Of a stretch of 64,000 nt of DNA, positions 6,333-45,953 are shown one piece after another (position 1 is the first letter of the stretch; each line of letters starts with the position of its first letter). The stretch is from Mitsuokella multacida DSM 20544 (GTDB taxonomy: Bacteria > Bacillota > Negativicutes > Selenomonadales > Selenomonadaceae). The notes under the pieces were generated by a model that searched no databases, had not been told where the DNA came from, and saw only the letters and a program-made list of their open reading frames with translations. The position numbers and the translations under genes are program-made. The DNA is taken from the NCBI RefSeq assembly GCF_000155955.1, contig NZ_GG697141.2, positions 506,855-570,854 on the forward strand, written 5' to 3'.

Positions 6333-6890
6333 ATGATTAATAGTACTGATTTCCGCACGGGCTTGACGATTGAAATTGATGGCGGTGTCTGGCAGATCGT
6401 TGATTTCCAGCATGTAAAGCCGGGCAAGGGCGCTGCGTTCGTTCGCACGAAGATCAAGAATGTTGAGACGGGTGCAGTGGTAGAGCGTACCTTCAATCCG
6501 AATGAAAAGATGCCGGCAGCTCACCTCGAGACGCGCAACATGCAGTACCTCTACGAGGCCGATGGCATGTACACGTTCATGGACACGGAGACGTACGAGC
6601 AGACGGAGCTCAACAAGGAGCAGCTCGGCGATGCGCTGAACTACCTCATGGAGAACATGGAAGTCTCGCTGCAGACGTTCAAGGGCCGCATCATCGGCAT
6701 CCAGCTGCCGAACTCCGTCAACCTCAAGGTCGTCGAGTGCGAGCCGAGCGTCAAGGGCAACACGGCGACGGGCGCTACGAAGATTGCCAAGGTCGAGACG
6801 GGCTACGAAGTCCGCGTGCCGCTCTTCGTCAACGAAGGCGATACGCTCCGCATCGATACGCGTACGGGCAACTACATCGAGCGCGCATAA
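6333..6890 (+). CDS. efp: Translation elongation factor P
   Basis: 185 residues with three beta-barrel domains. EF-P binds next to the ribosomal P site and rescues stalling at polyproline stretches, which fits the high Pro content of several proteins here. The modified loop is present as HVKPGKGAAF with Lys32 at the tip, the residue that is lysylated or aminopentanolylated in other bacteria. The C-terminal signature is LFVNEGDTLRIDTRTGNYIE. It has its own promoter (6231-6259) and a downstream terminator, so it is probably monocistronic. Confidence 0.97.
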   Translation: MINSTDFRTGLTIEIDGGVWQIVDFQHVKPGKGAAFVRTKIKNVETGAVVERTFNPNEKMPAAHLETRNMQYLYEADGMYTFMDTETYEQTELNKEQLGDALNYLMENMEVSLQTFKGRIIGIQLPNSVNLKVVECEPSVKGNTATGATKIAKVETGYEVRVPLFVNEGDTLRIDTRTGNYIERA

Positions 6891-6904
6891 TTTGCTTTTT
6901 TTGA

Positions 6905-6971
6905 GCAGCTGTCACGTCAGGCATCTCATGCAACTGGTGTGACAGCTGCATTTCTTTCATTTTATTTTTTT
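6905..6971 (+). terminator. Terminator after efp
   Basis: Perfect 11-bp inverted repeat GCAGCTGTCAC (6905-6915) and GTGACAGCTGC (6939-6949) with a 23-nt loop, followed by a T-rich run to about 6971. Confidence 0.65.
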
Positions 6972-6990
6972 GTTTGGGCAGGAAAAAGCG

Positions 6991-7018
6991 TTTGAGCCAG
7001 CGAATAATACAGTATAAA
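6991..7018 (+). promoter_or_regulatory. Possible promoter of the Asp23-AmaP operon
   Basis: TTTGAG (6991-6996) and TATAAA (7013-7018) are 16 nt apart. The ~90-nt leader holds a hairpin around 7021-7059 built on GCGCAT/ATGCGC and TGCATG/CATGCA. Moderate match only. Confidence 0.4.
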
Positions 7019-7110
7019 TATGCATGACAGGAGCGCATTATGCGCCTGCCGTGCATGCATCTGTTGAGTCGCAACTGATACACTCTAAATCAGGCAAGGG
7101 GGCCTTTATC

Positions 7111-7512
7111 ATGGCAAACGAAAAAGAAATCGTCAAGAAGGATTCGAGTCTCGGCGCCATCCGCATCGCGGATGAGGTCGTTAGCATCATCGCAGGCCTG
7201 GCCGCGACGGAAGTCGACGGCATCGCCGGCATGAGCGGCGGCATCGCGGGCGGCATCGCAGAGATGCTCGGCCGCAAGAACTTCGCCAAGGGCGTCAAGG
7301 TCGAAGTCGGCGAGAAGGAAGCCGCTGTCGACCTCTTCATCATCGTCAAGTACGGCGTGCGCATCCCGGACATCGCTCTCGCGGTGCAGGAGAATGTCAA
7401 GCAGGCCATCGAGACGATGACGGGCCTCTCGGTCGTTGAGGTCAACGTCCATGTACAGGGCGTCGGCTTCCCCGAGGAGACGACGAAGCAGGATGAGGTA
7501 CGCGTGCGCTGA
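7111..7512 (+). CDS. Asp23/Gls24 family envelope stress protein
   Basis: 133 residues from the ATG at 7111, which has AAGGGGG upstream; upstream in-frame codons lack a ribosome site. The Asp23/Gls24 domain spans most of the chain: GAIRIADEVVSIIAGLAATEVDGIAGMSGG, then the conserved KGVKVEVGEKEAAVDLFIIVKYG and VQENVKQAIETMTGLSVVEVNVHVQGV. Asp23 proteins are abundant, membrane-anchored by AmaP and linked to alkaline or envelope stress. AmaP and DUF2273 genes follow directly, and nusB after them, as with Bacillus yqhY-nusB. Confidence 0.93.
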   Translation: MANEKEIVKKDSSLGAIRIADEVVSIIAGLAATEVDGIAGMSGGIAGGIAEMLGRKNFAKGVKVEVGEKEAAVDLFIIVKYGVRIPDIALAVQENVKQAIETMTGLSVVEVNVHVQGVGFPEETTKQDEVRVR

Positions 7513-7532
7513 CCTGGAGCGAGGCGGATATT

Positions 7533-8108
7533 ATGGGGATTATCAACCGTTTTTTGCTGTTTGTCTTGATGATCGGGCTGGCCGTGCTCGCCGTGCTCAT
7601 GCTCTTGCTCTGCATGGGGGCCGTGCCAGAGCCGGTCTGGCTCAATGAACTCCATTACATCCTGTCCCGCCGTGAGACGATTGTTATCGCAATCGTCGTT
7701 CTCGTGCTCGCACTCCACCTGCTCGGCGTCTTGCTGCGAGGCCGTGCGGAGCGCACGCGCGAGACCGGCGACTTCATCCTGCTGCAGAATGATCAGGGCG
7801 GCGTCCGCGTCGCGCTGCCTGCCATCCGCGCGATGGCGGAGCAGACGCTCATAGGCATGCGCGGTGTCCGCATGGCGAAGGTGCGCGTTCAGCGCGTCCG
7901 CGCCACGAGCAAAGCGCCGGAGACGCTGCGCCTCGTGCTCGACCTGACGGTCGGCAGACATACGCCGGTCGGCCCGCTCACCGAGGCTGCCGCCGCGGCC
8001 ATCCGCGCGCAGCTCCAGGAGACCATGGGCCTTGAAGGTGTCGCAGTCGAATCGCACATCACGGGCATCACCGATGCGCTGCCTGAGGGCAAGCGCCGTG
8101 TCGTCTGA
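7533..8108 (+). CDS. amaP: Alkaline shock response membrane anchor protein AmaP
   Basis: 191 residues. Two N-terminal membrane segments are visible, about residues 6-29 and 49-68. A cytosolic domain resembling the Asp23 fold follows (RVALPAIRAMAEQTLIGMRG to VESHITGIT). AmaP anchors Asp23 at the membrane in Staphylococcus; the adjacent Asp23 gene 20 nt upstream supports the same pairing here. GAGGCGG precedes the ATG. Confidence 0.87.
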   Translation: MGIINRFLLFVLMIGLAVLAVLMLLLCMGAVPEPVWLNELHYILSRRETIVIAIVVLVLALHLLGVLLRGRAERTRETGDFILLQNDQGGVRVALPAIRAMAEQTLIGMRGVRMAKVRVQRVRATSKAPETLRLVLDLTVGRHTPVGPLTEAAAAAIRAQLQETMGLEGVAVESHITGITDALPEGKRRVV

Positions 8109-10473: not shown

Positions 10474-11352
10474 ATGTTGAAGGAAATTTGGAAAGAGCGT
10501 CAGCAGCTGGTCGAGAAGCAGCTCGTCAAGGAACTGGAGAAAGAGCCGCCTCTTGATGCGCGCCTCGCGGAGTCGATGCGCTACAGCCTCATGGCGGGCG
10601 GCAAGCGCCTGCGCCCGATCCTCCTGATGGCGGCCGCGGATGCCGTCGGCGCGAAGGGCACGGACTACCTGACGACGGCCTGCGCGCTCGAGATGATCCA
10701 CACGTATTCCCTGATCCACGACGACCTGCCCGCGATGGACAACGACGACTACCGCCGCGGCAAGCTGACGAACCACAAGGTCTTTGGTGACGGCATGGCC
10801 GTGCTCGCCGGCGACGCTCTCTTGACGCTGGCCTTCGAGGTCATCGGGCGCCAGCAGCACACGGACCCCGCGACGCTCTTGCGCACCGTGCAGGAGATCA
10901 GCACGGCGGCTGGCATGAACGGCATGGTCGGCGGCCAGGCCATCGACCTCGAGTCGGAGGGCCACCGCATCTCGATGGAGCAGCTTCGCAAGATGCACAT
11001 GGGCAAGACGGGGGCACTCTTCCGCGCGGCCCTGCGCAGCGGCGCCATCCTCGCGGGCGCGAGCGAAAAGCAGCTCGCGGCCCTGACTGCCTATGCCGAG
11101 GGCTTCGGCCTCGCTTTCCAGATCACGGACGACATCCTTGACGTGACGGGCGACGAGGCGCTCATCGGCAAGCCGGTCGGCAGCGACCTGCGCAACGAGA
11201 AGTCGACGTACGTGACGCTGACTTCGCTTGAGGAGGCCCAGCGCCTCGCCAAGGAGACGGTGGACGCTGCTGTCGCGGCACTTGATGGTTTCGGACCTGA
11301 GGCTGACTTCCTGCGCCAGCTCGTCCGCTATATGCTCGAACGAAAGAATTAA
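10474..11352 (+). CDS. ispA: Farnesyl/geranyl diphosphate synthase
   Basis: 292 residues from the ATG at 10474 (an in-frame ATG at 10456 overlaps xseB and has its GAGGG too close). It is an all-helical trans-prenyltransferase that condenses IPP with allylic diphosphates. Both aspartate-rich motifs are intact: DDLPAMDNDD (DDxxxxD form, typical of bacterial FPP synthase) and DDILD. GGKRLRP is the diphosphate-binding segment. It lies directly before dxs, so precursor and chain synthesis are co-transcribed. Exact chain length is inferred. Confidence 0.94.
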   Translation: MLKEIWKERQQLVEKQLVKELEKEPPLDARLAESMRYSLMAGGKRLRPILLMAAADAVGAKGTDYLTTACALEMIHTYSLIHDDLPAMDNDDYRRGKLTNHKVFGDGMAVLAGDALLTLAFEVIGRQQHTDPATLLRTVQEISTAAGMNGMVGGQAIDLESEGHRISMEQLRKMHMGKTGALFRAALRSGAILAGASEKQLAALTAYAEGFGLAFQITDDILDVTGDEALIGKPVGSDLRNEKSTYVTLTSLEEAQRLAKETVDAAVAALDGFGPEADFLRQLVRYMLERKN

Positions 11353-11376
11353 ATTGCATTGATGGGAAGTGTTTCC

Positions 11377-13266
11377 ATGTATCCATTGCTCAATCGCATA
11401 GAGAACCCGGAGGACGTCAAGAAGCTCACGGTCCGCGAGCTCGAGCAGCTGGCATCGGAGCTGCGCCATTTCATCATCGATACGGTCTCGCAGAACGGCG
11501 GGCACCTCGCGCCGAACCTCGGCACGGTCGAGCTGACGCTCGCGCTCTACAGCGTCTTTGACTTTCCCGCAGACAAGCTCGTCTGGGACGTCGGCCATCA
11601 GGCCTACAGCCATAAGATCCTCACGGGACGCAGGGATGCGTTCTCGACGCTGCGCAAGAAGGGCGGCATCACCGGCTTCCCCAACCGCTTTGAGTCGGCC
11701 TACGATGCCTTCGGCGTCGGCCATGCGAGCACGTCCATCTCGGCGGCGCTCGGCATGGCGCTCGCGCGCGATGCCAAGGGGGAGAAGAACCAGGTCATCG
11801 CCGTCATCGGCGACGGTGCGCTGACGGGCGGCGAGTCGTTCGAGGCGCTCAATAACGCCGGCGACCTCGGCACGAAGCTCATCGTCATCCTCAACGACAA
11901 CGAGATGTCTATAGACGCCAATGTCGGCGCCATGAGCGAGTACCTCTCGCGCATCCGCATCGCGCCGCAGTACGCGCGCGCCAAGCGCGACATGGGCAGC
12001 CTGCTCATGAGCATCCCGCACATCGGCGACAAGGTCTACAAGACGGCGAGCCACCTCAAGGACGGCGTGCGCTCCGTCCTCGTGCCGGGCAGCCTCTTCG
12101 AGGAGATGGGCTTCCACTACATCGGCCCGCTCGACGGCCACAACATCGCGCTGATGGAGGAAGTATTCAAGAGCGCCAAGGAGATGGAGGGGCCCGTCCT
12201 GATCCACATCCATACGGTCAAGGGCAAGGGCTACCAGCCGGCCGAGCAGGCGCCGGAGAAGTTCCACGGCGTCGGCTGCTTTGACCCAAGTACGGGCAAG
12301 TCCGCGAAGAAAGCGGGCTGTGCGCCGTCCTACACCTCCGTCTTCAGTCAGGCGCTCATCGAGCTCGCGAAGGACCGGCCCGACATCCTCGCCATCACGG
12401 CGGCCATGCCGTCGGGCACGGGGCTCAAGGCCTTCGGCAAGGCCTATCCGAAGCGCTTCTTCGACGTCGGCATCGCCGAGGAGCACGCGATGACGCTCGC
12501 GGCCGGCATGGCCGCCGGCGGCATGCATCCCGTCATCGCGCTCTACTCGACGTTCGCGCAGCGCGCCTACGACCAACTCATCCACGACGTCTGCCTGCAG
12601 AATCTGCCCGTGACGCTCTGCCTCGACCGCGCCGGCCTCGTCGGCGAGGACGGCCCGACGCATCACGGCGTCTTCGACCTCTCGTACCTGCGTCAGATGC
12701 CGAACATGTGCGTCATGGCGCCAAAGGACGAGGAGGAGCTCCGCCATATGCTCGCGACAGCCATCGCGATACCGGGGCCAGCCGCCGTGCGCTATCCGCG
12801 CGGTGCCGGCCTCGGCGTAGAGCTCACGGACTCGTTTGAAAAGCTGTCCGTCGGCAAGGCTGAGGTCTTGCAGGAGGGCGGCAGCATCGCCTTCCTCGCT
12901 GTCGGCACGATGGTCGAACAGGTGAAAGAGGCTGCCGCCATCCTCGCCGAGGAGGGCATCGAGTCGACCGTCGTCAACATGCGCTTTATCAAGCCGCTCG
13001 ATACAGCGCTCATCGATGCGATGGCCAAGACGAAGAAACTCATCATCACGGCGGAGGAGAATGTGCTCGCAGGCGGCTTCGGCTCGGCCGTGGCCGAGTA
13101 CCTCGCGGATAGCGGCCAGCAGGTGCCCCTCGTGCGCTTCGGCATCCCCGACCGCTTCATCGAGCAGGGCACGCGTAAGGAGCTTTTGTCGCTCTGCGGC
13201 CTGCAGCCCGAGCAGATGGCCGAGTGCGTGCGCGAGCGGCTGAGCCATCTGGCCCCAGAGGCATGA
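11377..13266 (+). CDS. dxs: 1-deoxy-D-xylulose-5-phosphate synthase
   Basis: 629 residues from the ATG at 11377 (GGGAAG upstream), which gives the standard MYPLLNRIENP start; an in-frame ATG at 11359 lacks spacing for a ribosome site. It is a thiamine-diphosphate enzyme that joins pyruvate and glyceraldehyde-3-phosphate, the first step of the MEP pathway. The ThDP motif GDGALTGGESFEALNNAG is clear. The pyrimidine-domain glutamate is in FDVGIAEEHAMTLAAGMA. The transketolase-like C-terminal domain ends near EQMAECVRERL. Confidence 0.97.
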   Translation: MYPLLNRIENPEDVKKLTVRELEQLASELRHFIIDTVSQNGGHLAPNLGTVELTLALYSVFDFPADKLVWDVGHQAYSHKILTGRRDAFSTLRKKGGITGFPNRFESAYDAFGVGHASTSISAALGMALARDAKGEKNQVIAVIGDGALTGGESFEALNNAGDLGTKLIVILNDNEMSIDANVGAMSEYLSRIRIAPQYARAKRDMGSLLMSIPHIGDKVYKTASHLKDGVRSVLVPGSLFEEMGFHYIGPLDGHNIALMEEVFKSAKEMEGPVLIHIHTVKGKGYQPAEQAPEKFHGVGCFDPSTGKSAKKAGCAPSYTSVFSQALIELAKDRPDILAITAAMPSGTGLKAFGKAYPKRFFDVGIAEEHAMTLAAGMAAGGMHPVIALYSTFAQRAYDQLIHDVCLQNLPVTLCLDRAGLVGEDGPTHHGVFDLSYLRQMPNMCVMAPKDEEELRHMLATAIAIPGPAAVRYPRGAGLGVELTDSFEKLSVGKAEVLQEGGSIAFLAVGTMVEQVKEAAAILAEEGIESTVVNMRFIKPLDTALIDAMAKTKKLIITAEENVLAGGFGSAVAEYLADSGQQVPLVRFGIPDRFIEQGTRKELLSLCGLQPEQMAECVRERLSHLAPEA

Positions 13267-13310
13267 ATTGAGATAGTAAGAGAGACAGTAGATAGACAGA
13301 AGGGTAGACA

Positions 13311-14117
13311 ATGGCAAAAGAACGTTTGGACATCCTGCTCGTCGAGCGGGGACTGGCCGGCAGTCGTGAGCGCGCGAAGCGCATGATCATGGCGGGCGAG
13401 GTTCTCGTCGACGGGCAGAAGATCGACAAGGCTGGCACGACGGTGAAACCTGAGGCAGAGATACGGCTGCTCGGGCATGACATCCCCTATGTGAGCCGCG
13501 GCGGCCTCAAGCTCGAGAAGGCGATGAAAGAATTCGGCGTGCGCCTGCAGGACAAGGTCGCGGCCGATATCGGCGCCTCGACGGGCGGCTTCACCGACTG
13601 CATGCTGCAGAACGGCGCGAAGAAGGTCTTCGCCATCGATGTCGGCTACGGCCAGCTGGCCTGGAAGCTGCGCACGGACGAGCGCGTCATCAACATGGAG
13701 CGCACGAACATCCGCACGGTCACGCCGGAGATGATCGGTGAGCCCTTGGACTTCGCCTCAATCGATGTGGCCTTCATCTCGCTGACAAAGGTCCTGCCGG
13801 TTGCCTACTCGCTGCTCAAAGAGACAGGCGAAGTCGTCGCGCTCATCAAGCCGCAGTTCGAGGCAGGCCGCGAGAAGGTCGGCAAGAAGGGCGTCGTGCG
13901 CGACCCGGCCGTCCACGCGGAGGTCATCCGCACGGTCACGGATTTTGCGCGCAGCCTCGGCTTCTGCCCGCTCGCATTGACGTATTCGCCCGTCAAGGGT
14001 CCCGAGGGCAACATCGAGTACCTCATCTACCTCTCGCGCGCCGAGGGCGAGGACACCGTGACGGAAGAGCGGCTGCAGCAGGTCGTCGCGGATGCCCATG
14101 CGGACCTCGATCACTGA
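13311..14117 (+). CDS. tlyA: TlyA family rRNA 2'-O-methyltransferase (YqxC-like)
   Basis: 268 residues. An S4 RNA-binding domain (1-~65, RLDILLVERGLAGSRERAKR) is joined to an FtsJ-like methyltransferase domain. The SAM motif DIGASTGGFTDCMLQNGAKK is near residues 86-105, and ALIKPQFEAGREKVGKKGVV holds the catalytic lysine of the K-D-K-E set. TlyA enzymes methylate 2'-OH groups of 16S and/or 23S rRNA. The place between dxs and argR/recN matches Bacillus yqxC. Haemolysin labels in older annotations are misleading. Confidence 0.93.
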   Translation: MAKERLDILLVERGLAGSRERAKRMIMAGEVLVDGQKIDKAGTTVKPEAEIRLLGHDIPYVSRGGLKLEKAMKEFGVRLQDKVAADIGASTGGFTDCMLQNGAKKVFAIDVGYGQLAWKLRTDERVINMERTNIRTVTPEMIGEPLDFASIDVAFISLTKVLPVAYSLLKETGEVVALIKPQFEAGREKVGKKGVVRDPAVHAEVIRTVTDFARSLGFCPLALTYSPVKGPEGNIEYLIYLSRAEGEDTVTEERLQQVVADAHADLDH

Positions 14118-14138
14118 TTCCTGGGAAGGAGGCGCTCT

Positions 14139-14996
14139 ATGTTAACGATAGCGGTTTTCCCGAATACGAATAAGCCGGAGGCGCCGGCCGTCCTGCAGCG
14201 CATCCTCTCGTTCTATGCGGACAAGGATGTGCGTGTCATCATGCCGGTGGAGGAGGCGCGCTTCTTCCAGCATGCGGGTTACGGTGTCACGGATATCGAG
14301 AACGTGCCCACAGACATCGCACTGAGCATCGGCGGCGACGGCACGCTCCTCGGCGTCTGCCGCCGCTACAGCCACCATGCCGTGCCCGTCTGCGGCGTCA
14401 ACATCGGCACACTCGGCTTCATGGCCGACATCGAGCTGCACGAGCTCGAGACGAAGCTGCAGAAGCTCTTAGACGGTGACTTCCACATCGAGCATCGCCT
14501 GCTCTTGGCGGGCTCCGTCCGCTCGGGGGGCAAAGAGCGCTTCCTCGGCCATGCGATCAACGACATCGTCGTCAAGGGCGGTGTCGCGCGCATGCTGCAC
14601 CTCGGGCTGACGATCAACGAGAGCCACCTGCTCGACTGCAAGGCCGACGGCATCATCATCTCGTCGCCGACGGGCTCGACGGCCTACTCGCTGTCGGCCG
14701 GCGGCCCAATCGTGAACCCGAACGTCCGCGCGCTCATTGTCACGCCGATCTGCGCCCATACGTTCAACATCCGGCCACTGATCATCCAGGAGGACGACAC
14801 CGTGCACGTCGCGATTGCCTCCATCCCGCAGGACACCATCATCACGTTCGACGGGCAGGTCTGCTACCGGCTGCTGCCCGGCGACGAGGTCATCGTCAAG
14901 AAGTCCGAGGCGCAGGCGGAGATCATCAAGTTCGAGGACAAGGACTACTACCAGATCCTGCGCACGAAGCTCTGGCGCCAGGGCGGTGAACAGTAA
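14139..14996 (+). CDS. nadK: NAD kinase
   Basis: 285 residues. It phosphorylates NAD to NADP in the cytosol. The diagnostic GGDGTLLGVCR motif is at about residues 66-76. It is followed by GVNIGTLGFMAD, then the conserved NDIVVKGG and DGIIISSPTGSTAYSLSAGGP. The start has AAGGAGG upstream. It lies in the same run as tlyA, argR and recN, with spacing of about 20-45 nt. Confidence 0.96.
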   Translation: MLTIAVFPNTNKPEAPAVLQRILSFYADKDVRVIMPVEEARFFQHAGYGVTDIENVPTDIALSIGGDGTLLGVCRRYSHHAVPVCGVNIGTLGFMADIELHELETKLQKLLDGDFHIEHRLLLAGSVRSGGKERFLGHAINDIVVKGGVARMLHLGLTINESHLLDCKADGIIISSPTGSTAYSLSAGGPIVNPNVRALIVTPICAHTFNIRPLIIQEDDTVHVAIASIPQDTIITFDGQVCYRLLPGDEVIVKKSEAQAEIIKFEDKDYYQILRTKLWRQGGEQ

Positions 14997-35029: not shown

Positions 35030-36253
35030 TTATACATCATTCTGCTGGAGTGTGCGCAGGATTTTTTGCACGAAAGCTGCGAAGGGGGCAGCTTCGATGA
35101 GATTGGGGATGTCCTTCTCGTAGAGTCGGCCGGAGAAGGCGATGTGCGGCAGCGGGACGAAGGCGGCAGCAGGTGGGCAGATGGGCTCGTAGAGCGGGTC
35201 TGCGATGATGAGGCCGGCCTCATGCAGGCGGGGAATCAGCTCGCATTCGTCCGTCAGGCAGAGCGTGCCGGGCTGCAGGAGCTCGCTGTCGGTTTCCATC
35301 GGCACGATGGCCGTGATGGGCGAGCGGGGCAGACCGAGCGCCGCCTCGAGGGCGCGGGCCAGCGACTCAGCAAAGACCGTCTCCCCGATGATATAAGCCG
35401 GCCTGCCTGCAAGGGCATTGCTCGGTGCATTGCTCGGTGTATCGATTGGCTGCAGCTGCGGGAAGGGGAGACCGATAAGGTACGGGATGCCAGCGTGCTC
35501 GCGCAGGACGCGCGCGGCGCCGAGGCCGCCGTAGCTCACGACGAGGTCTAGGTCGGCGCGGTATGAGGCGAGGATGGTATCGAGGTCAGAATCCATGGCC
35601 CAGCAGCTCGTGACGCGGCAGCCGCGCGCCTCGAGCCAGTGCCGGATGGAGCCGATGCTGCCGTTCATGGCGAAGTCGAGCGGTGTCGCGCCGAGCACGT
35701 TGACGCAGAGCGGGGCAGGGGCCTTGGCCTGCACGAAGCGGGCGAGACTTTCCTCGCTGAGCCAGTCGGGCGCTGTTGGCGCTGGGGCGGCGTCCGACTC
35801 TGACAGGGACTGGCAGGCGAGGTCGGCTAGCTTTTGCAAGGCGAAGTAGATGCCGCGCTCGTAGTAGTGCATGCTGTTCGTCGGCAGGGTGAAGGCAGGG
35901 ATGCCGGTCTTCTTCTCGAGGATGCGGCAGATGGCGCGGCAGTCGGTGGCGATCATATGGGCGATCTGCGAGGGGATCAGGCAGATAAAGCGCGGCTGGA
36001 GCTCTTTGGCAGCTGCTTCGATATCTGCGATGAGTTTGGCGTCGTTGCCGAGGATGGCGTCCTGCTCGGTCAGGGCGGAGACGAAGATTTGGCTCGGCTC
36101 CTTGAACCAGCGCGGCTCGTCGTGCGTCGTGTATGTCGAGTTGCAGCCCGAGGGGTCGTGGATGACGACCATGCCGCCGAGCTCGTAGAGTGCAGAGCAG
36201 ACGCCGAAGGTATCGGCTGAGTAGGTAGAGAGGATGCGGGCAGTCTGTTTCAT
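35030..36253 (-). CDS. Nitrogenase component 1-like protein, NifK type (separate copy)
   Basis: 407 residues of the nitrogenase/oxidoreductase component 1 superfamily. The N-terminal YELGGMVVIHDPSGCNSTYT with Cys37, followed by HDEPRW, matches the equivalent segment of the fused protein encoded upstream (YPLGGMTVIVDAGGCAGN... DEPRW). Other candidate metal ligands are Cys91 and Cys105. The region LIPSQIAHMIATDCRAICR parallels the NifK core. It overlaps the NifD-like gene by 4 nt (ATGA), so a NifD/NifK-like pair is expected. It is not a true NifK: shorter, with few cysteines, and no NifB, NifE or NifN genes are in the window. The substrate is unknown. Confidence 0.8.
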   Translation of the reverse strand: MKQTARILSTYSADTFGVCSALYELGGMVVIHDPSGCNSTYTTHDEPRWFKEPSQIFVSALTEQDAILGNDAKLIADIEAAAKELQPRFICLIPSQIAHMIATDCRAICRILEKKTGIPAFTLPTNSMHYYERGIYFALQKLADLACQSLSESDAAPAPTAPDWLSEESLARFVQAKAPAPLCVNVLGATPLDFAMNGSIGSIRHWLEARGCRVTSCWAMDSDLDTILASYRADLDLVVSYGGLGAARVLREHAGIPYLIGLPFPQLQPIDTPSNAPSNALAGRPAYIIGETVFAESLARALEAALGLPRSPITAIVPMETDSELLQPGTLCLTDECELIPRLHEAGLIIADPLYEPICPPAAAFVPLPHIAFSGRLYEKDIPNLIEAAPFAAFVQKILRTLQQNDV

Positions 36254-37596
36254 AGCAGTGATGGGCCTCCTAATCCCTTGCGCCGGACGTTTGACTCGAT
36301 GTCCTTAGGCTCTCGGTAGGCTGCCACCATGTCACTGGCCAGCGCCTTGATGGCAGAGAAGCCCCAGCGGCCGCCGCCTTCCACCATGTTGACGAAGTAC
36401 GGCGTGTTCTGGAAAAACGCCGCCTTCTGGCCGAGGGCGAGGACGGGGGGACCAGATGAATGGGACGGGCGCGGTAAAAGGCGCAGCGCAGGGGCCTTGG
36501 TCGGCCAGAGCTCCGTATCGCCATGGTTCTCCTGCAGCCAGCGGAAATCTGCCTCTTCTTCTGCGCTTATCGCATCGGCGTAGATCGCCTTGACATGGAA
36601 GCCGTGCGCGAGCAGCAGGCGCGCGAGCGAGAAGGGGCGGAAGGTGAAGGTCAGGTCGAGGGCAATCGGCGTTTCTTGGATGATGCTTCGTGCGCTGGCA
36701 AGTGCCTGCTCGGCCCGCTCGCGGGCGGCGCGGCAGTCCGGCGCGTCTGCGCCGATGCGGCAGGCGAGCTCCTGCAGCAGTCCTTCGATAGCGTCTCCCG
36801 ACCAGACCTGTGGCAGGTAGAGATAATCCTGCTGCAGGCGCTCCTTGAGATCGCGCACGGCGGGCAGGCTGAAGGGATTCGTGTAGAGGTTGAGCGAGGA
36901 GGCGCCGAGCTCCTGGAACTCGGCGTAGCTCGTGCAGCCGGCCATATCGCGGATCTGCCAGCCGCTCTCTTTGAGCAGCCGCCAGGCGTCGCTCTCGGGG
37001 GCGGTCTTTAGATTGTTGCCGAAAAAGGCGGCCTGCTTCTTCTTGGGCCGCTCGTGCAGCAGTCGGCTGATGGCGCGGCGCAGGCGCTCTTCGGGCGTCA
37101 GGTGGCGCGTCTGGCGGATCGGGTCCATGAAGCACTCGGCGAAGTCGATGTCCGGGTACTTCGCGCGGAGCTCGCGGTAGACGTAGCGCAGGTTGCAGCC
37201 GAGGAAGTGGTGGACGCATGCGGGGAAGAGCAGCACGGCGCGCGGCCGCTCGGGCAGGCGCGCGAGGATGTCGGCGACGCCCGCGAGGATCAGGCGCTCG
37301 TTGTCGCGGCCCGTCAGGTCGGTTTCGCGGAGCTCAATGGAAGAAAAGCGTCCCATGAGCCCCATCTCGGCGGCGGTCAGCACGACGCCGCGCAGGCAGC
37401 CGGAAGCGCAGATGAAGATCTGGTGGGACTCGGGGACGAGCATGCCCGTGTGGACGATGTTCCAGGTGCCGCGGCAGGGCGGCGAGTACTCGAGCCCGTG
37501 CGGAAAAGGCGCGGGGAAGGCGGCCTCGCGCGCGTGCAGCATGGGCGAAGCCGGTATGCCGTCCGCTTCGGGTGCAGGAGAGATTCGCTTGAGCAA
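36250..37596 (-). CDS. Nitrogenase component 1-like protein, NifD type (separate copy)
   Basis: 448 residues from TTG at 37596, chosen because GAGGTGA lies 7-8 nt before it; an in-frame GTG at 37605 overlaps that site. Component 1-type Rossmann domains are suggested by IFICASGCLRGVVLTAAEMG (Cys63, Cys67), VLLFPACVHHFLGCNLRYVY (Cys127, Cys134) and NVVEGGG-like NMVEGGGRWGFSAIKAL near the C-terminus. It lies 60 nt after hypE and overlaps the NifK-like gene. Cysteine spacing differs from the MoFe protein, so cluster content cannot be predicted. An enzyme, a scaffold or a cofactor-maturation factor are all possible. Confidence 0.75.
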   Translation of the reverse strand: MLKRISPAPEADGIPASPMLHAREAAFPAPFPHGLEYSPPCRGTWNIVHTGMLVPESHQIFICASGCLRGVVLTAAEMGLMGRFSSIELRETDLTGRDNERLILAGVADILARLPERPRAVLLFPACVHHFLGCNLRYVYRELRAKYPDIDFAECFMDPIRQTRHLTPEERLRRAISRLLHERPKKKQAAFFGNNLKTAPESDAWRLLKESGWQIRDMAGCTSYAEFQELGASSLNLYTNPFSLPAVRDLKERLQQDYLYLPQVWSGDAIEGLLQELACRIGADAPDCRAARERAEQALASARSIIQETPIALDLTFTFRPFSLARLLLAHGFHVKAIYADAISAEEEADFRWLQENHGDTELWPTKAPALRLLPRPSHSSGPPVLALGQKAAFFQNTPYFVNMVEGGGRWGFSAIKALASDMVAAYREPKDIESNVRRKGLGGPSLL

Positions 37597-37657
37597 GGGA
37601 TTCACCTCAGTTCATTGATCATTGGTCAGTGGCAGGGATTCATTGGCGGGGATGGGC

Positions 37658-38698
37658 TCAGCAGATGCGCGGCAGCAGCTCGCCAGACGGCTCGGGCAGC
37701 AGCGTCTTCGTGCCAATCTCCGTGCGCAGGACGACGCGGCCCGAGAAGTCTGGCGTGACATGGCCGATGATGGCCGCCTGCCGCGAGTCGGGCAGCGCGC
37801 GCAGGGTCTCGACGAGCTTTGGCGCGATGGCCTGCGGCGCGAAGAGGACGAGGCGCCCCTCGCAGGCGAGGTAGAGCGGCTCGAGTCCCAAGAGACCGCA
37901 GACGCCGCGGACCTCCGGTGCGACGGGGATGGCGGGGGCATCGAGCTCGATGCCGACGTGGCTCTCGGCGGCAATCTCGTGCAGCACGGTGCCGACGCCG
38001 CCGCGCGTGGCATCGCGTATCGTGTGGATGGCGGACTTGTCGGGCACGGCCGCGAAGAGGGCCCTGACGGTCGCGGCGAGCGGCGCGCAGTCGCTCGTGA
38101 TGGCAGCGTCGATGGCGAAGTCGCGGCGCGCGACGAGGATGGCGGCCCCGTGGCGGCCGACGTCGCCCGTAACGATGATGGCGTCGCCTGCTTCGGCGCG
38201 CGAGCCGGAGGGCTCAGCGTCAGGCAGCAGCTCGCCAAGGCCCGTCGTCGTGATGAAGACGCCGTCGACCTGGCCGCGCCCGGCGACTTTCGTGTCGCCC
38301 GCGACGATGCGCACGCCGGCAGCTTTAGCCGTCTCTGCCATCGCGGCGGCGATGGCGTCGAGGTCCCGTAGCGGGAATCCTTCCTCAATCTGGAAGGCGC
38401 AGGAGAGGTAGCGCGGCACGGCGCCCATGCAGGCGAGGTCGTTGACCGTGCCGCAGATGCTGAGCTTGCCGATGTTGCCGCCTGGGAACTGCCAGGGCGA
38501 GACGATGAAGCCGTCCGTCGTGAAGGCGGTCCTGCCCGTGGCGAAATTGCCGACGGGCAGGATGGCTGCATCGTCGGCGGTGAAGTCGGGGTTCTGGAAG
38601 TGGCGCGCAAAGACGCGCGCGATGAGCGCGGCCGTCTGGCGGCCGCCCGCGCCGTGCGCCAATGTGACGCGGGCATCGTCTGGGAATTCAGCAGTCAT
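37658..38698 (-). CDS. hypE: Hydrogenase maturation protein HypE
   Basis: 346 residues from the ATG at 38698, which has GGAGGG eight bases before it; the in-frame ATG at 38704 overlaps the hypD stop but has its ribosome site too close. PurM-like ATPase that dehydrates carbamoyl-HypE to a thiocyanate, the CN− donor. N-terminal LAHGAGGRQTAALI, TTDGFIVSPWQFPGGNIGKL and RDATRGGVGTVLHEIA are family motifs. The chain ends exactly in PRIC, the C-terminal cysteine that carries the CN group. It works with HypF and passes CN− to HypCD. Confidence 0.95.
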   Translation of the reverse strand: MTAEFPDDARVTLAHGAGGRQTAALIARVFARHFQNPDFTADDAAILPVGNFATGRTAFTTDGFIVSPWQFPGGNIGKLSICGTVNDLACMGAVPRYLSCAFQIEEGFPLRDLDAIAAAMAETAKAAGVRIVAGDTKVAGRGQVDGVFITTTGLGELLPDAEPSGSRAEAGDAIIVTGDVGRHGAAILVARRDFAIDAAITSDCAPLAATVRALFAAVPDKSAIHTIRDATRGGVGTVLHEIAAESHVGIELDAPAIPVAPEVRGVCGLLGLEPLYLACEGRLVLFAPQAIAPKLVETLRALPDSRQAAIIGHVTPDFSGRVVLRTEIGTKTLLPEPSGELLPRIC

Positions 38699-38700
38699 GA

Positions 38701-39747
38701 TCATAACCCTCCATAGAGATAATAGGCCGAGCAGGCGCCCTCGCGCGAGACCATGCAGGCGCCGACGGGGTGGTCCGGCGTGCAGGCTTTGCCGTAGAGC
38801 GGGCAGTCCACAGGCCTTGCGAGGCCCTGCAGGATGGCGCCGCAGCGGCAGGCGGGGTTGGCCCGGCCAGTCATCGCGGGCAGGGCGAAGCGCTTCCGCG
38901 CGTCGCGTGCGGCAAAGGCTTCGCGCAGCTGCAGGCCGCTCTCCTTGAGCACGCCGAGCCCGCGCCATTCAGCATCGCAGGGCTCCATATACGCTGCGAC
39001 GAGTGCCTGCGCGGCGGGATTGCCCTCGGGGCGCACGACGCGCGGATAGCAGTTGGCGAAGAAGGGCCTATCCGCCTGCACCTTCTCGAGGATGGTGGCG
39101 AGCGCGCGCAGGAGCTCGCCAGCGGTGAAGCCCGCGACGACGCCGGAGATGCCCTCTCTTGTCAGCGATTCGGGCAGGCTTGTCCCCGTGATGGCGCAGA
39201 CGTGGCCGGGGTAGAGGTAGGCGTCCGTGTGGCTGGCCATCGCAGTGTAGGCGGCGGGCATCGTCTTGTTGGCCGTCAGCAGGGAGAAGTTCGCCGTGTG
39301 CTGCGCTTCGGCGTGACGGAGCGCGAGGCAGGCGGTGGGCGTCGTCGTCTCGAAGCCGACGGAGAGGAAGACGGTCTCTTCTTCGGGATGTTCGGTGGCG
39401 TAGGTCACGGCGTCGAGCGGCGTGTAGACGACCTGGACGCGGGCGCCGCGGCTGCGCGCCTCGGCTAAGGTCCCCGCTGTGCCCGGCACGCGCACGAGGT
39501 CGCCGAACGTGCAGATGGTGGCATGGCACTTCTCGGCAAGGTAGAGCGCCTCATCGATATAGGAGACGGGCGTCACGCAGACGGGGCAGCCGGGACCCGA
39601 GATGAGCTCGACCGCTTCGGGCAGCAGGCTGCGGATGCCGAGCCGAAAGATCTCGTGCGTGTGGGTGCCGCAGACTTCCATGATGCGGACCTTCGGGCCC
39701 CGATAGCCGGTGATGATGGCGCGGTCCCTTGCGGCAGCTGCGTTCAT
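38701..39747 (-). CDS. hypD: Hydrogenase maturation protein HypD
   Basis: 348 residues. HypD is the [4Fe-4S] scaffold on which, with HypC, Fe(CN)2(CO) is built. Conserved cysteines are visible in MEVCGTHTHEI (Cys26), SGPGCPVCVTP (Cys54, Cys57), and the C-terminal cluster-binding region with CRCGAILQG, CPLYGKAC and GACMVSREGACSAYY. FETTTPT and GFTAGELL are also typical. It overlaps hypC by 4 nt (ATGA) and abuts hypE. All residues needed for activity seem intact. Confidence 0.97.
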   Translation of the reverse strand: MNAAAARDRAIITGYRGPKVRIMEVCGTHTHEIFRLGIRSLLPEAVELISGPGCPVCVTPVSYIDEALYLAEKCHATICTFGDLVRVPGTAGTLAEARSRGARVQVVYTPLDAVTYATEHPEEETVFLSVGFETTTPTACLALRHAEAQHTANFSLLTANKTMPAAYTAMASHTDAYLYPGHVCAITGTSLPESLTREGISGVVAGFTAGELLRALATILEKVQADRPFFANCYPRVVRPEGNPAAQALVAAYMEPCDAEWRGLGVLKESGLQLREAFAARDARKRFALPAMTGRANPACRCGAILQGLARPVDCPLYGKACTPDHPVGACMVSREGACSAYYLYGGL

Positions 39748-39938
39748 TCCGGTACCTCCTCGTCTTCGTTGTCTTCCGTGATCTTTGCGATGGCCACGCC
39801 GGCGTGGACCATGACGTAGTCGCCAGTGTCGATGTCGGAGAGCAGCTCGGCGGAGACTTCGCGGCGGGCGCCGGAGGCGTCGACGAGCGCCATGCCATCC
39901 TGGATGCGCACGACTTTAGCGGGTAAACCGACACACAT
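39744..39938 (-). CDS. hypC: Hydrogenase maturation chaperone HypC
   Basis: 64 residues, HypC/HybG family. It begins MCVGLPAKVV, and the N-terminal Cys2 is the iron-binding residue of the family. ALVDASGARREVSAELL and DYVMVHAGVAIAKI complete the OB-like fold. The C-terminus is acidic. AAAGGAAG precedes the ATG. HypC binds HypD during Fe(CN)2(CO) assembly and then delivers iron to the hydrogenase large subunit; no such subunit gene is in the window. Confidence 0.96.
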   Translation of the reverse strand: MCVGLPAKVVRIQDGMALVDASGARREVSAELLSDIDTGDYVMVHAGVAIAKITEDNEDEEVPE

Positions 39939-42331: not shown

Positions 42332-44902
42332 TCAGTTGCTGATAGAATTCTTGGCGTATTCAAGTGTTCTCGATGGGTGCATGGGTGCTTTGCGGCCGGA
42401 AAGCGCGAAGTGCGGCAGGTCAAGGAGGGTGCCGCCAAACGGTTTCGGCACGGCGCGCGTGAGCAGAGCATCGCCGATGACGATTGCATCGGGATGTGCC
42501 TGCAGGTAAGCGTGGAAGTCCTGCTCGCCGCGGAAGTGCAGGTCGCCTTTCCGCTGGAGTGCCCGGTCGAGCGCGAAGAAGCTGCCGACCGCCACAGCGG
42601 CCGCGGGCAGCGCGGGGAAGCGCTGGCAGATGGCAAGGCGCAGGCCGTTGGCAAGGATCTGCTGGTGCACGATGAGCACCTCCCTGGGCTGCCCGTCCTG
42701 AAGCAGGGCCGCAAGACGGCTCAGTACAGCGGAGAACGCCTCGTGGATAAAGGCGGGCGGCAGTTCTGTCCGGATGGGGATGTTCCATTGGCGCTGCAGG
42801 CGGCGGGCGGCCTTGAGCCCCGTTGGCGAGACGACGAGCAGCTCCTTGAGCCGCGCGGCCTCGCGGAAGTCATCGAGCCGGTCGAAGAAGCGGACGGGGG
42901 TGCCCGCCGTGTCTGCTTCTTCTCCGCCAAGCAGGGCGCGCAAAGATGCAGACTCTGCTCTCGAGAAGTCAAGCGGCGTCAGGCCGAGTACGCCGAGCTC
43001 TGTGCGCGGTGCAGCGAGCGGGATGGGCGCCGCGAACTTCTGCACGAGCGCATCATAAGCGGCGCTTGCGCCTCTGTCGTAGAGCCGCGTGCCGTCCGTG
43101 CGCACGGCGATGGCCGGCAGGAATGTCTCCTTCTCGACCATGCGGCAGAGGGCGCGGAAGTCGGTGGCGATGATGGCGGGCACCGGCGTGCTGACAAGTC
43201 CGACAAAGGAGACGGTGAGCTCGGCGGCTGCCTCGCGGATCTTTGCGACGAGATTGGCGTCGCGGCCCATGATGGCGTCCATGTCGCGCAGGCCTGCGCT
43301 GAATACGGCGGACGGCGCGGCCTCTTCCTGCCAGCGCGGCTCGTCGAAGCCGCAGATGTTGCCCGCGCAGCCGCCCGCATCGACGATGACCGTCATGCCG
43401 CCGAGCGGGTAGAGCACGGCGGCCGCGCCGGCCGTATCGGGGGCAAACGGCGGCAGGGCGAGCGAGAGGCGCGGCAGCGTGGAGACGGTGTGGGAGCTCT
43501 CGCGGACCGGCAGCTCATCCGAACTCTCCGCTGCCTCTTTATCTGCTGTATCTATATCATTATCGTCATCATCGTCGCGCATTGCCGCCGCCATGCGCTC
43601 GAAGAGGGCGCGGACGGCCTGATAGCCGAAGGGCTGCTCCTCATCGTTCCACGTCACGTGCTTGGCATGCGGATGGCAGAGGCAGGCGTCGGCGCCGAGC
43701 GCGAGCGTGACGGCGCGGTCCTCCCGATAGCAGAGCATGGTCGGCTCGAGCAGCGAGTAGATGCGCGTAGCGGGGGAGCACCTCGCGAGCTCGCGCAGGT
43801 AGAAGGCATCGGCGGCTGACGGCACGGCGAAGATCTCGCGGACTTCGAGGCCGCGTTTGGCGAGGGCCAGAGCGAGCTCGAAGGGGTTGGCGTTGAGGCG
43901 GCTGCCGATGGCGAGCACTGTCTCGCGCCCGTACTGCTGGCAGAATGCGTCAGCAGCCTGTTCGGCCTGCTCGCGTGCCTCGGCGGCGGCGAAGGACTCC
44001 GGCGCGCTGCCGAGGATATGGGCGAGGGCCTGATACTGCTTCGCGATCTTGGCTGTCTCGTAGAGCCGCCGCAGGCGGATGGCGGGGATGCCGAGCCGCT
44101 TCTCGAGCGCGAGGGCAGCGCCCATCGCCTCGTCGCTGAGCACGAGATTGAAGTTGGCTGCCGCGAGCGATGCGAATTCCTCGTACGTCTGGCAGCGCGC
44201 GAGCTCCGCGGCCCTGCGGATGCCTGCCTTCTCTAGCAGCGAGAAGAGCTCCGAGTCTCTTGCGACCGGCGTGAAGAAGCCGAGCAGGTTGGCCTGACGG
44301 GCCCACTTTTGGCGCGGTTGCAGCAGACCGTAGATCGTCTCGCGCACGGCCTGCATCGGCGGGCGCTGGCTCTCGCGCGTCAGCGCGTACATGTAGCAGG
44401 GGCGCACGGGGACGCCTGCGGCCGCTTCGGCCTTGCGGCAGACGCGCTCCATATCGGTGCCGAGCAGTGCGTCGGCACACGTCAGGCAGACCATGACGAC
44501 GGAGGGGCGCTCCCTGCGGCTGGCGACGAACGCGCAGACGGCCTCGGGGATGCGCTGCAGATGGCTGCCCGTGACGATGCCCGCCTCATCGAGCGCGAGG
44601 TAGGCGAAGCGCTCGCCATAGTGGCCGCTGCCCGAGAGCGCCGCGGTGTTGCGGCCGCAGCAGCCGGGCGAGACGAGCAGCATGATGCTGCCGGGGATGC
44701 TGAGCCCCGCACGCTTGACGCCGAAGCCCTGCGCGCCCGGCGAGTTGAAGTCGATGGCCGCCGGCGTGTTGCAGATGAGATGCGCGTCCGTGCGCAGTTC
44801 AGGCGGGATGCCGCCGGCACCATTTTCCTCGATGCGGCGGGCGAGTTCCTGCACGGTGATCGAGTAGGCAGCTCTTGAAGCACTGTCTTGCTGTTGCATC
44901 AT
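42332..44902 (-). CDS. Fused NifD-NifK-like nitrogenase component 1 protein
   Basis: 856 residues from the ATG at 44902, chosen because GAGGG lies 8 nt upstream; a longer in-frame start at 44944 would overlap the NifH-like gene. Residues 1-~440 form a NifD-like half with MLLVSPGCCGRNTAALSG (Cys81, Cys82) and VMVCLTCADALLG (Cys139, Cys142). An acidic linker follows (about 441-476, rich in Asp/Glu/Ser). Residues ~480-856 are a NifK-like half with YPLGGMTVIVDAGGCAGNIC (Cys512, Cys517), FDEPRW and IIATDFRALCRMVEKE (Cys586). The gene is 4 nt after the NifH-like gene, so NifH-like is the expected electron donor. Substrate and cofactor are unknown. Confidence 0.82.
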   Translation of the reverse strand: MMQQQDSASRAAYSITVQELARRIEENGAGGIPPELRTDAHLICNTPAAIDFNSPGAQGFGVKRAGLSIPGSIMLLVSPGCCGRNTAALSGSGHYGERFAYLALDEAGIVTGSHLQRIPEAVCAFVASRRERPSVVMVCLTCADALLGTDMERVCRKAEAAAGVPVRPCYMYALTRESQRPPMQAVRETIYGLLQPRQKWARQANLLGFFTPVARDSELFSLLEKAGIRRAAELARCQTYEEFASLAAANFNLVLSDEAMGAALALEKRLGIPAIRLRRLYETAKIAKQYQALAHILGSAPESFAAAEAREQAEQAADAFCQQYGRETVLAIGSRLNANPFELALALAKRGLEVREIFAVPSAADAFYLRELARCSPATRIYSLLEPTMLCYREDRAVTLALGADACLCHPHAKHVTWNDEEQPFGYQAVRALFERMAAAMRDDDDDNDIDTADKEAAESSDELPVRESSHTVSTLPRLSLALPPFAPDTAGAAAVLYPLGGMTVIVDAGGCAGNICGFDEPRWQEEAAPSAVFSAGLRDMDAIMGRDANLVAKIREAAAELTVSFVGLVSTPVPAIIATDFRALCRMVEKETFLPAIAVRTDGTRLYDRGASAAYDALVQKFAAPIPLAAPRTELGVLGLTPLDFSRAESASLRALLGGEEADTAGTPVRFFDRLDDFREAARLKELLVVSPTGLKAARRLQRQWNIPIRTELPPAFIHEAFSAVLSRLAALLQDGQPREVLIVHQQILANGLRLAICQRFPALPAAAVAVGSFFALDRALQRKGDLHFRGEQDFHAYLQAHPDAIVIGDALLTRAVPKPFGGTLLDLPHFALSGRKAPMHPSRTLEYAKNSISN

Positions 44903-44906
44903 CTGG

Positions 44907-45668
44907 TCAACCCTCAGCCTTCTCCTGCACGATTTCGCGCGCAAGTGCGAAGAACGCCTGGCTCACAGGGTCCTCAGGCGCCGCCTCGACGACCGTCATG
45001 CCGCGCTCCTCAGCCTCGCTGATTGCGTCGCTGCGCGGGATGTCCGCGAGGACGGGCAGCTGATGCGCTTCGGCGAAGGCGCGGACTTTCTCCTCCTCGC
45101 GCGGCACGTTGCGGCGGTTCAAGAGAACGCCGCGGACCTTCGCGTAGCCGCGGTCGGCGAAGTTCTCGACGGCCGTCGCGATGTTGTTGGCCGCGTAGAG
45201 CGCCATCTTCTCGCCCGACGTCACGATCAGCACGTCCTCGGCATAGCCCTCGCGGATCGGCGCCGCAAAGCCGCCGCAGACGACATCGCCGAGCACATCG
45301 TAGAGCACGACGTCCGGCTGCTCCCGCTCGAAGAGCTCGAGGTCCTCGAGCAGGTTGAACGTCGCGATGATGCCGCGCCCCGCGCAGCCGAGCCCCGGCG
45401 TCGGGCCGCCCGTCTCGATGCAGAGCACGCCGCCGAAGCCGCGCGCCGAGATCTCCTCGAGCGAAGAGGGCTCCGCGTCGAATTCCCGCATGTAGCCCAT
45501 GACCGACTGCAGCGGCTTGCCGCCGAGCAGGTTGATCGTCGAATCCGCCTTCGGGTCACAGCCAATCTGGATGACCTTCTTCCCCAGAGCCGCCAGTGCC
45601 GCCGCCAGATTGCTCGTCAGTGTCGACTTCCCGATGCCGCCCTTTCCGTATACTGCAATCTTCCGCAT
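44907..45668 (-). CDS. NifH-like nitrogenase reductase (Fe protein family)
   Basis: 253 residues from the ATG at 45668; the adjacent ATG at 45671 has AGGAGG too close. Walker A is [31 protein letters not shown] is switch I-like. The two [4Fe-4S] ligand cysteines of the dimer are in GLGCAGRGI and [15 protein letters not shown], and the Arg of CAGRG is kept. It should be an ATP-driven two-subunit electron donor. It is shorter than true NifH at the C-terminus, and no nifB/E/N genes are near. Related families (ChlL/BchL, CfbC) serve tetrapyrrole reduction; here the partners are the Nif-like proteins downstream. Confidence 0.92.
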
Positions 45669-45697
45669 CATATCCCTCCTAATAAACAACTATCTCT

Positions 45698-45866: not shown

Positions 45867-45953
45867 GCCGGAGTGGCGGAATTGGCAGACGCAGCAGACT
45901 CAAAATCTGCCGTTGGCAACAACGTACCGGTTCAAGTCCGGTCTTCGGCACCA
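45867..45953 (+). tRNA. tRNA-Leu (anticodon CAA)
   Basis: 87-nt type II tRNA with a long variable arm. Acceptor GCCGGAG pairs with CTTCGGC (one G-U). The anticodon stem-loop GCAGA-CTCAAAA-TCTGC gives anticodon CAA, which reads UUG. The T-arm is CCGGTTCAAGTCCGG, and the 3' CCA is encoded. A terminator follows at 45966. It marks the boundary of the minus-strand nif-like/hyp operon. Confidence 0.95.

Follow-up and report, generated by a model that had tools for sequence, protein, structure and literature searches.

What is a nitrogenase-like protein, made of two component-1-like halves fused in one chain, doing next to the Hyp maturation genes of Mitsuokella multacida DSM 20544? In the window, by which we mean the whole stretch of 64,000 nucleotides that was analysed, its gene lies in a predicted nine-gene minus-strand operon, nifH-D~K-hypF-hypC-hypD-hypE-E2-N2 (Table 1). 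A sequence-only reading had picked out the fused protein but missed this context, and it is the operon, nifHDK-hypFCDE-nifEN-like, that is the real finding. That the two halves are fused matters less, as fused NifEN is already known and fusion is recurrent. The best explanation, and in our judgement a probable one, is that the cluster provides the CO/CN-bearing iron unit of the H-cluster by a route that does not need HydG.

Table 1. Features of the nitrogenase-like/hyp cluster, with positions in the window.
Feature	Position	Strand	Evidence
NifH-like iron protein, 254 aa, Walker motif, cluster C97/C133 (numbering from 45674)	44907..45671	minus	Pfam Fer4_NifH E 1.4e-90
Fused component-1-like D~K protein, 856 aa	42332..44902	minus	ORF, Pfam, AlphaFold2/Foldseek/VIA-align
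Acidic linker between D and K halves, about residues 443-477	43472..43576	minus	translation, pLDDT
HypF carbamoyltransferase, 782 aa	39972..42320	minus	TIGR00143 730 bits, cut-off 466
HypC chaperone, 64 aa, Cys2 kept	39744..39938	minus	TIGR00074 62.4 bits, cut-off 48
HypD scaffold, 348 aa	38701..39747	minus	TIGR00075 370 bits, cut-off 193
HypE dehydratase, 348 aa, C-terminal PRIC	37658..38704	minus	TIGR02124 385 bits, cut-off 252
E2, second component-1-like subunit (NifE/D-like, 451 aa)	36250..37605	minus	Pfam Oxidored_nitro E 1.1e-10
N2, second component-1-like subunit (NifN/K-like, 407 aa)	35030..36253	minus	Pfam Oxidored_nitro E 2.9e-24

The fusion and its two halves, as described from the sequence, are borne out, but the strand had to be corrected: the plus strand of 42332-44902 is interrupted by stops, and the open frame of 856 codons is on the minus strand. 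It contains two Oxidored_nitro stretches (Pfam, E 3.5e-47). The cysteine segments listed earlier are all at their residues, i.e. SPGCCGRN at C81/C82, the C-x2-C at 139/142 and DAGGCAGNIC at 508-517 (C512, C517). The linker of about 35 residues is indeed acidic; however, it is Ser-rich rather than built only from Asp, Glu and Ser, and other residue types occur in it. In the AlphaFold2 model of the whole chain (mean pLDDT 81.7, pTM 0.64) the pLDDT is below 50 over residues 447-486, corresponding to a disordered linker.

A scan of 84,980 genomes gave 502 relatives of the D half, and the loci of the best 80 were analysed. Fused homologues are found in G010 (835 aa, 74% identical), G015 (820 aa) and G020 (791 aa), and among the best 80 of the 502 relatives D and K are continuous in frame in 8/80 other loci, from several families. 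These independent fused relatives exclude an assembly frameshift as the origin of the fusion, the artefact that had been named as its possible refutation. Separate D and K genes, which the sequence-only reading had proposed to look for in related genomes, are the rule among relatives, and their stop and start often overlap. Judged from these sequences, D~K joins two overlapping genes in a fusion specific to its lineage. The recurrence of the fusion supports the earlier suggestion that D and K work as a heterodimer. Both halves fold as component-1 subunits.

The best Foldseek match of the whole chain is the naturally fused NifEN of Geobacter (9i0g). With VIA-align the D half is closest to NifN, VnfK and NifE (Z about 22-23), and the K half to BchB (Z about 24). 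Methylthio-alkane reductase (9fmg, 9d9u) is one of several similar structural matches. Four cysteines, three in D and one in K, are widely conserved among relatives: C82 in 90/91, C139 in 87/91, C142 in 91/91 and C512 in 90/91; C81 is not strictly conserved. The six cysteines of a P-cluster are not present in D~K, in line with the earlier remark that the pattern departs from the usual one, and the four conserved residues appear to fit a single interface [4Fe-4S] better than a six-Cys P-cluster. This 3+1 pattern resembles the single [4Fe-4S] of NifEN and DPOR. Further, C142 aligns with a conserved NifE cysteine, and in the sequence alignment with NifE the position of the FeMo-co cysteine (Cys275) is Ser, Asn or Asp in D. 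About 20 residues before this position, C237 of D~K is kept in 82/91 relatives and C224 of E2 in 81/88.

Homology and fold could suggest that the cluster is a nitrogenase, a tetrapyrrole reductase (DPOR, COR or CfbCD) or a methylthio-alkane reductase. We consider this extremely unlikely. D~K scores 28-40 bits against the NifD and NifK equivalogs, for which the cut-offs are 486-654, and the NifH-like protein reaches 312 bits, under the NifH cut-off of 394. In general no cluster protein reaches the cut-off of any nitrogenase-family equivalog, the DPOR, COR and CfbCD models included, and there is no methylthio-alkane reductase model among the curated-model matches. NifB is above its cut-off in C. 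thailandense alone among 35 carriers of the cluster; in M. micronuciformis the match is near the cut-off. The residue found in D at the FeMo-co cysteine position also speaks against a nitrogenase. On the cut-offs and the absence of NifB, nitrogenase and the known nitrogenase-like enzymes were rejected.

Some of these enzymes are among the nearest known counterparts. NifEN, including its fused form (PRK14477; Geobacter 9i0g), is like D~K a heterodimer with a 3+1 Cys interface, is a precedent for the fusion and is the best full-length structural match; however, the score of D~K against the fused NifEN family is 69 bits, far under the cut-off of 1229, and nearly all carriers of D~K have no NifB. 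DPOR (BchL/BchN/BchB) and CfbCD are likewise two-component, ATP-driven reductases with one interface [4Fe-4S], and BchB is the nearest structural neighbour of the K half, but the scores are under all equivalog cut-offs and the cluster has no tetrapyrrole genes.

The Hyp part of the operon is complete in its key residues. All four proteins are true HypF, HypC, HypD and HypE, above the curated cut-offs and with catalytic residues: C2 of HypC is invariant in 69/69 relatives, C26/C54/C57/D83 and six C-terminal Cys of HypD in 76/76, and the PRIC tail of HypE in 73/73. The residues kept here in HypC, HypD and HypE match those that Fe(CN)2CO assembly reportedly requires in E. coli, with the HypD numbering offset by 15 (PMC12130793). 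What differs from the HypCDEF of [NiFe]-hydrogenase maturation is the setting: there is no hypA or hypB at the cluster locus, the genome usually has no NiFe hydrogenase, and nitrogenase-like genes are in the same operon. In the nitrogenase-like proteins the cluster cysteines of NifH (C97 in 84/84 and C133 in 85/85 relatives), C70 and C130 of E2 (88/88) and C37 of N2 (90/90) are also conserved. Relatives of E2 often end in GGPCCL, a C-terminal Cys pair, and the copy in the window ends in GGPSLL. A tRNA gene (45867-45950, plus strand) lies opposite in direction to the nifH-like gene and just upstream of it, and no riboswitches were found near the cluster with Rfam.

How widespread is this arrangement? 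When the nine proteins were searched against relatives with tblastn, the order nifH-D-K-hypF-hypC-hypD-hypE-E2-N2 was found in about 14 Selenomonadaceae genomes. The best 80 of the 502 relatives include Selenomonas, Schwartzia, Megasphaera, Roseburia, Blautia, Coprococcus, Eubacterium ramulus, Anaerobutyricum, Anaerostipes, Clostridium, Lentisphaeria, Coriobacteriaceae and Atopobiaceae, and all seven of nifH, D, K, hypF, hypC, hypD and hypE are present in 63/80 of these best loci. The genes keep this order from Selenomonadaceae to Lachnospiraceae, Lentisphaeria and Coriobacteria. Outside Selenomonadaceae, E2-N2 is often accompanied by a NifH of its own (NifH'). A quick tree, with SH-aLRT support only and a midpoint root, separates 36/39 NifH' as one branch from the NifH that belongs to the DK pair; the three Megasphaera-type NifH' fall beside the H group.

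A few loci deviate. In G002 (L072) nifH, hypD and hypE are missing, and D, K, hypF, hypC, E2 and N2 are kept; this genome has HydF and HydA, no HydG, and a hydrogenase-type HypD alone, and HypD/HypE may here be shared between systems. In the Schwartzia genome G020 (L077, L078) E2-N2 is found apart from the hyp part, elsewhere in the genome, with its own NifH'. The cluster of G140 is spread over two contigs (L096, L097) with several in-frame stops, reflecting either decay or poor sequence. G040 (L091) has a lone K-like protein at 6884-7912 (342 aa, 27% identical) near a HypF gene, with neither D, nifH nor other hyp genes, and was not counted among the carriers. The plasmid pTS1 of Treponema saccharophilum (L215) encodes, at 11250-14423, a NifH and two component-1 proteins, 29.5% identical to D~K, beside an iron ABC transporter; no hyp genes are found within 12 kb, and therefore related nif-like pairs exist outside the cluster system. 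The carrier genera Coprococcus and Eubacterium overlap with those of Group/Cluster IV nifH in the human gut, a likeness at the level of genera; Cluster IV comprises several families. These cluster IV genes are abundant and transcribed in the human gut (PMC4995403).

With HypCDEF intact, and a NiFe hydrogenase in the Mitsuokella genome itself, the cluster might be thought to support NiFe-hydrogenase maturation, e.g. as the unknown anaerobic source of its CO. The carriers contradict this. No match to NiFe hydrogenase (PF00374) is found in 28/34 of them, from many families; exactly these 28 have one HypD each, against two or more in the six with a match. HypA is absent in 23/35 carriers. Further, the Mitsuokella genome has one NiFe hydrogenase large subunit, and its hydrogenase locus has separate hypC, hypD and hypE, as well as its own hypA, elsewhere in the genome. 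Finally, 126/151 relatives have no cluster match, and 148/151 match the NiFe large-subunit family. As most carriers have no NiFe hydrogenase, an accessory role for that enzyme was rejected, and we give it hardly any probability.

The genes flanking the cluster point instead to the other hydrogenase. When they were clustered, HydE, HydF and a small protein recurred, and curated models confirm HydE (TIGR03956), HydF (TIGR03918) and the TM1266 iron-only hydrogenase regulator (TIGR03959). At least one of hydE, hydF or TM1266 is present in 46/80 loci (best 80 of 502): HydE in or beside the cluster in 20, HydF in 13 and TM1266 in 38, some of them between D and K. HydE was confirmed in the Mitsuokella genome and, by tblastn, in all 20 HydE regions retrieved. 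The last genes of the G015 cluster are E2-N2-hydF, and the frame after them is aspartate-ammonia-lyase-like; aspA is known from hyd operons (PMC11736057). The catalytic domain of [FeFe]-hydrogenase (HydA) is found in all 55 distinct carriers tested, and is absent in 10/11 HydF-negative non-carriers. HydA, HydE and HydF are in this way all found in genomes that carry the cluster.

What is missing is HydG, whose normal product is a Cys-bound Fe(CO)2(CN) unit, the substrate from which HydE and HydF form the diiron site (PMC11736057). In 54 of the 55 carriers tested there is no HydG, and by the HydG model (TIGR03955) it is absent in 34 of the 35 carriers searched individually; the exception is C. 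thailandense, which has both cluster and HydG. Carriers and non-carriers were then compared within one family. Among 151 Selenomonadaceae, HydG is found in 0/24 cluster carriers and in 62/127 others. The 94 HydF-positive genomes divide into 23 with the cluster, 62 with HydG, none with both and 9 with neither. Of the 57 HydF-negative ones, none has HydG and one is a carrier (G011, a fragmented MAG with HydA), so that HydF is present in 23/24 carriers. Without correction for phylogeny, the Fisher p-value is 5.7e-15 for cluster against HydG within HydF-positive genomes and 1.4e-30 for cluster-or-HydG against HydF. The two systems also swap inside three genera (g3, g16 and g27), which contain both cluster-bearing and HydG-bearing species but never one genome with both.

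It is strongly supported by these comparative data that the cluster very probably replaces HydG in the assembly of the [FeFe]-hydrogenase active site. Like HydG, the cluster would supply a CO/CN-bearing iron unit to HydE and HydF, and both occupy the same phylogenetic niche. However, there is no sequence relation between them: the core of the cluster has no radical SAM enzyme, and uses Hyp and nitrogenase-like proteins.

The nine HydF-positive Selenomonadaceae with neither system are G025, G073, G081, G094, G009, G065 and three incomplete MAGs; four of the nine share a genus with the carriers G049, G063 and G088. The six named ones, among them G025, G009 and G065 (L211, L212, L213), have HydF and HydA, and neither HydG nor the cluster. 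A third route, loss or gaps in the assemblies must therefore account for the nine. They count against the replacement, as do C. thailandense, with both systems, and G002, whose locus has no nifH, hypD or hypE. These genomes, and the about 1% activation reached in vitro by HydE and HydF alone (cited in PMC9431212), would agree with the suggestion in the same paper that free cellular CO/CN, or a divergent radical SAM protein, replaces HydG; the cluster would then be correlated through ecology alone. We find this very unlikely, given hydE, hydF or TM1266 in more than half of the best 80 loci and the exchange of cluster and HydG inside three genera. As for a divergent radical SAM protein, the best HydG-like match in the Mitsuokella genome (174 bits, in a 420-aa frame) is most likely ThiH, because a ThiE-like frame follows.

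It could also be imagined that the Hyp-built Fe(CN)2CO is incorporated into the cofactor at which the nitrogenase-like enzyme does its own catalysis, and that this enzyme reduces some substrate that has nothing to do with hydrogenase. A dedicated hypFCDE in carriers that mostly have no NiFe hydrogenase would fit, as would two component-1 pairs that resemble a catalytic DK and a scaffold EN. However, neither the complementary distribution of HydG nor the presence of hydE, hydF and TM1266 in the cluster is explained in this way, and we regard it as unlikely.

A replacement of HydG would also connect two observations that a 2022 study made independently in acetogens and left unconnected (PMC9431212). 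There, five of eight acetogenic Clostridium species had HydE and HydF but no HydG, and in others the assignment of HydG was doubtful; HypC, HypD, HypE and HypF without HypA/HypB were found in five species. The locus tags of these hyp genes are consistent with the order F-C-D-E. Its authors had no straightforward explanation, and considered mechanisms of ligand incorporation "not yet identified". The main text of a C. autoethanogenum transposon paper does not mention the cluster genes (PMC9004356). In the literature covered, to which subscription journals and most preprints do not belong, no paper joins nitrogenase-like and hyp genes or describes such a replacement of HydG.

How might the HydG-independent route work? 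The chemistry of the nitrogenase-like parts, and how D~K and E2-N2 share the work, we infer as follows. D~K would be the electron-acceptor component of a nitrogenase-like two-component enzyme, partnered by HypF, HypC, HypD, HypE and E2-N2. HypF and HypE would make cyanide from carbamoyl phosphate, HypC and HypD would be the scaffold that holds the iron, and NifH would deliver electrons, coupled to ATP hydrolysis, to D~K through the interface [4Fe-4S] (C82, C139, C142, C512). The iron-ligand unit would be reduced or edited by D~K and E2-N2; the most plausible way is that they make CO, with CO2 or some other C1 compound as the source. HydE would then be given an Fe(CO)x(CN)y unit comparable to the product of HydG, and HydE and HydF would complete the H-cluster.

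Nitrogenases and iron proteins are able to reduce CO2 to CO. In the simplest reading, the Hyp part would give a cyanide-bearing iron on HypCD, and the reductases would provide the CO ligands and/or the exchange and reduction steps. The product of HypCD is Fe(CN)2CO, not the Fe(CO)2CN made by HydG, and therefore an extra ligand-exchange step would be needed. A more specific proposal is that the nitrogenase-like pairs make CO, e.g. from CO2, at or near the Hyp-built cyanide-bearing iron, with ATP and low-potential electrons, yielding the Fe(CO)x(CN)y of the H-cluster. We put this forward tentatively, as a possibility with somewhat less than even chances; if true, the assembly machineries of nitrogenase, [NiFe] and [FeFe] enzymes would be united in one biological system.

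If the cluster does replace HydG, nature would have two routes to the active site of [FeFe]-hydrogenases, and the second would serve hydrogen-making or hydrogen-using bacteria that are very common in gut and rumen, and possibly acetogens. This route would account for active hydrogenases in organisms without HydG and for the "orphan" HypCDEF that they retain, and it would give a role to some of the cluster IV nifH genes that are abundant and transcribed in the human gut. Nitrogenase-like enzymes would gain a role in the assembly of organometallic cofactors, and the route could be of use for producing hydrogenases without tyrosine-derived CO and CN.
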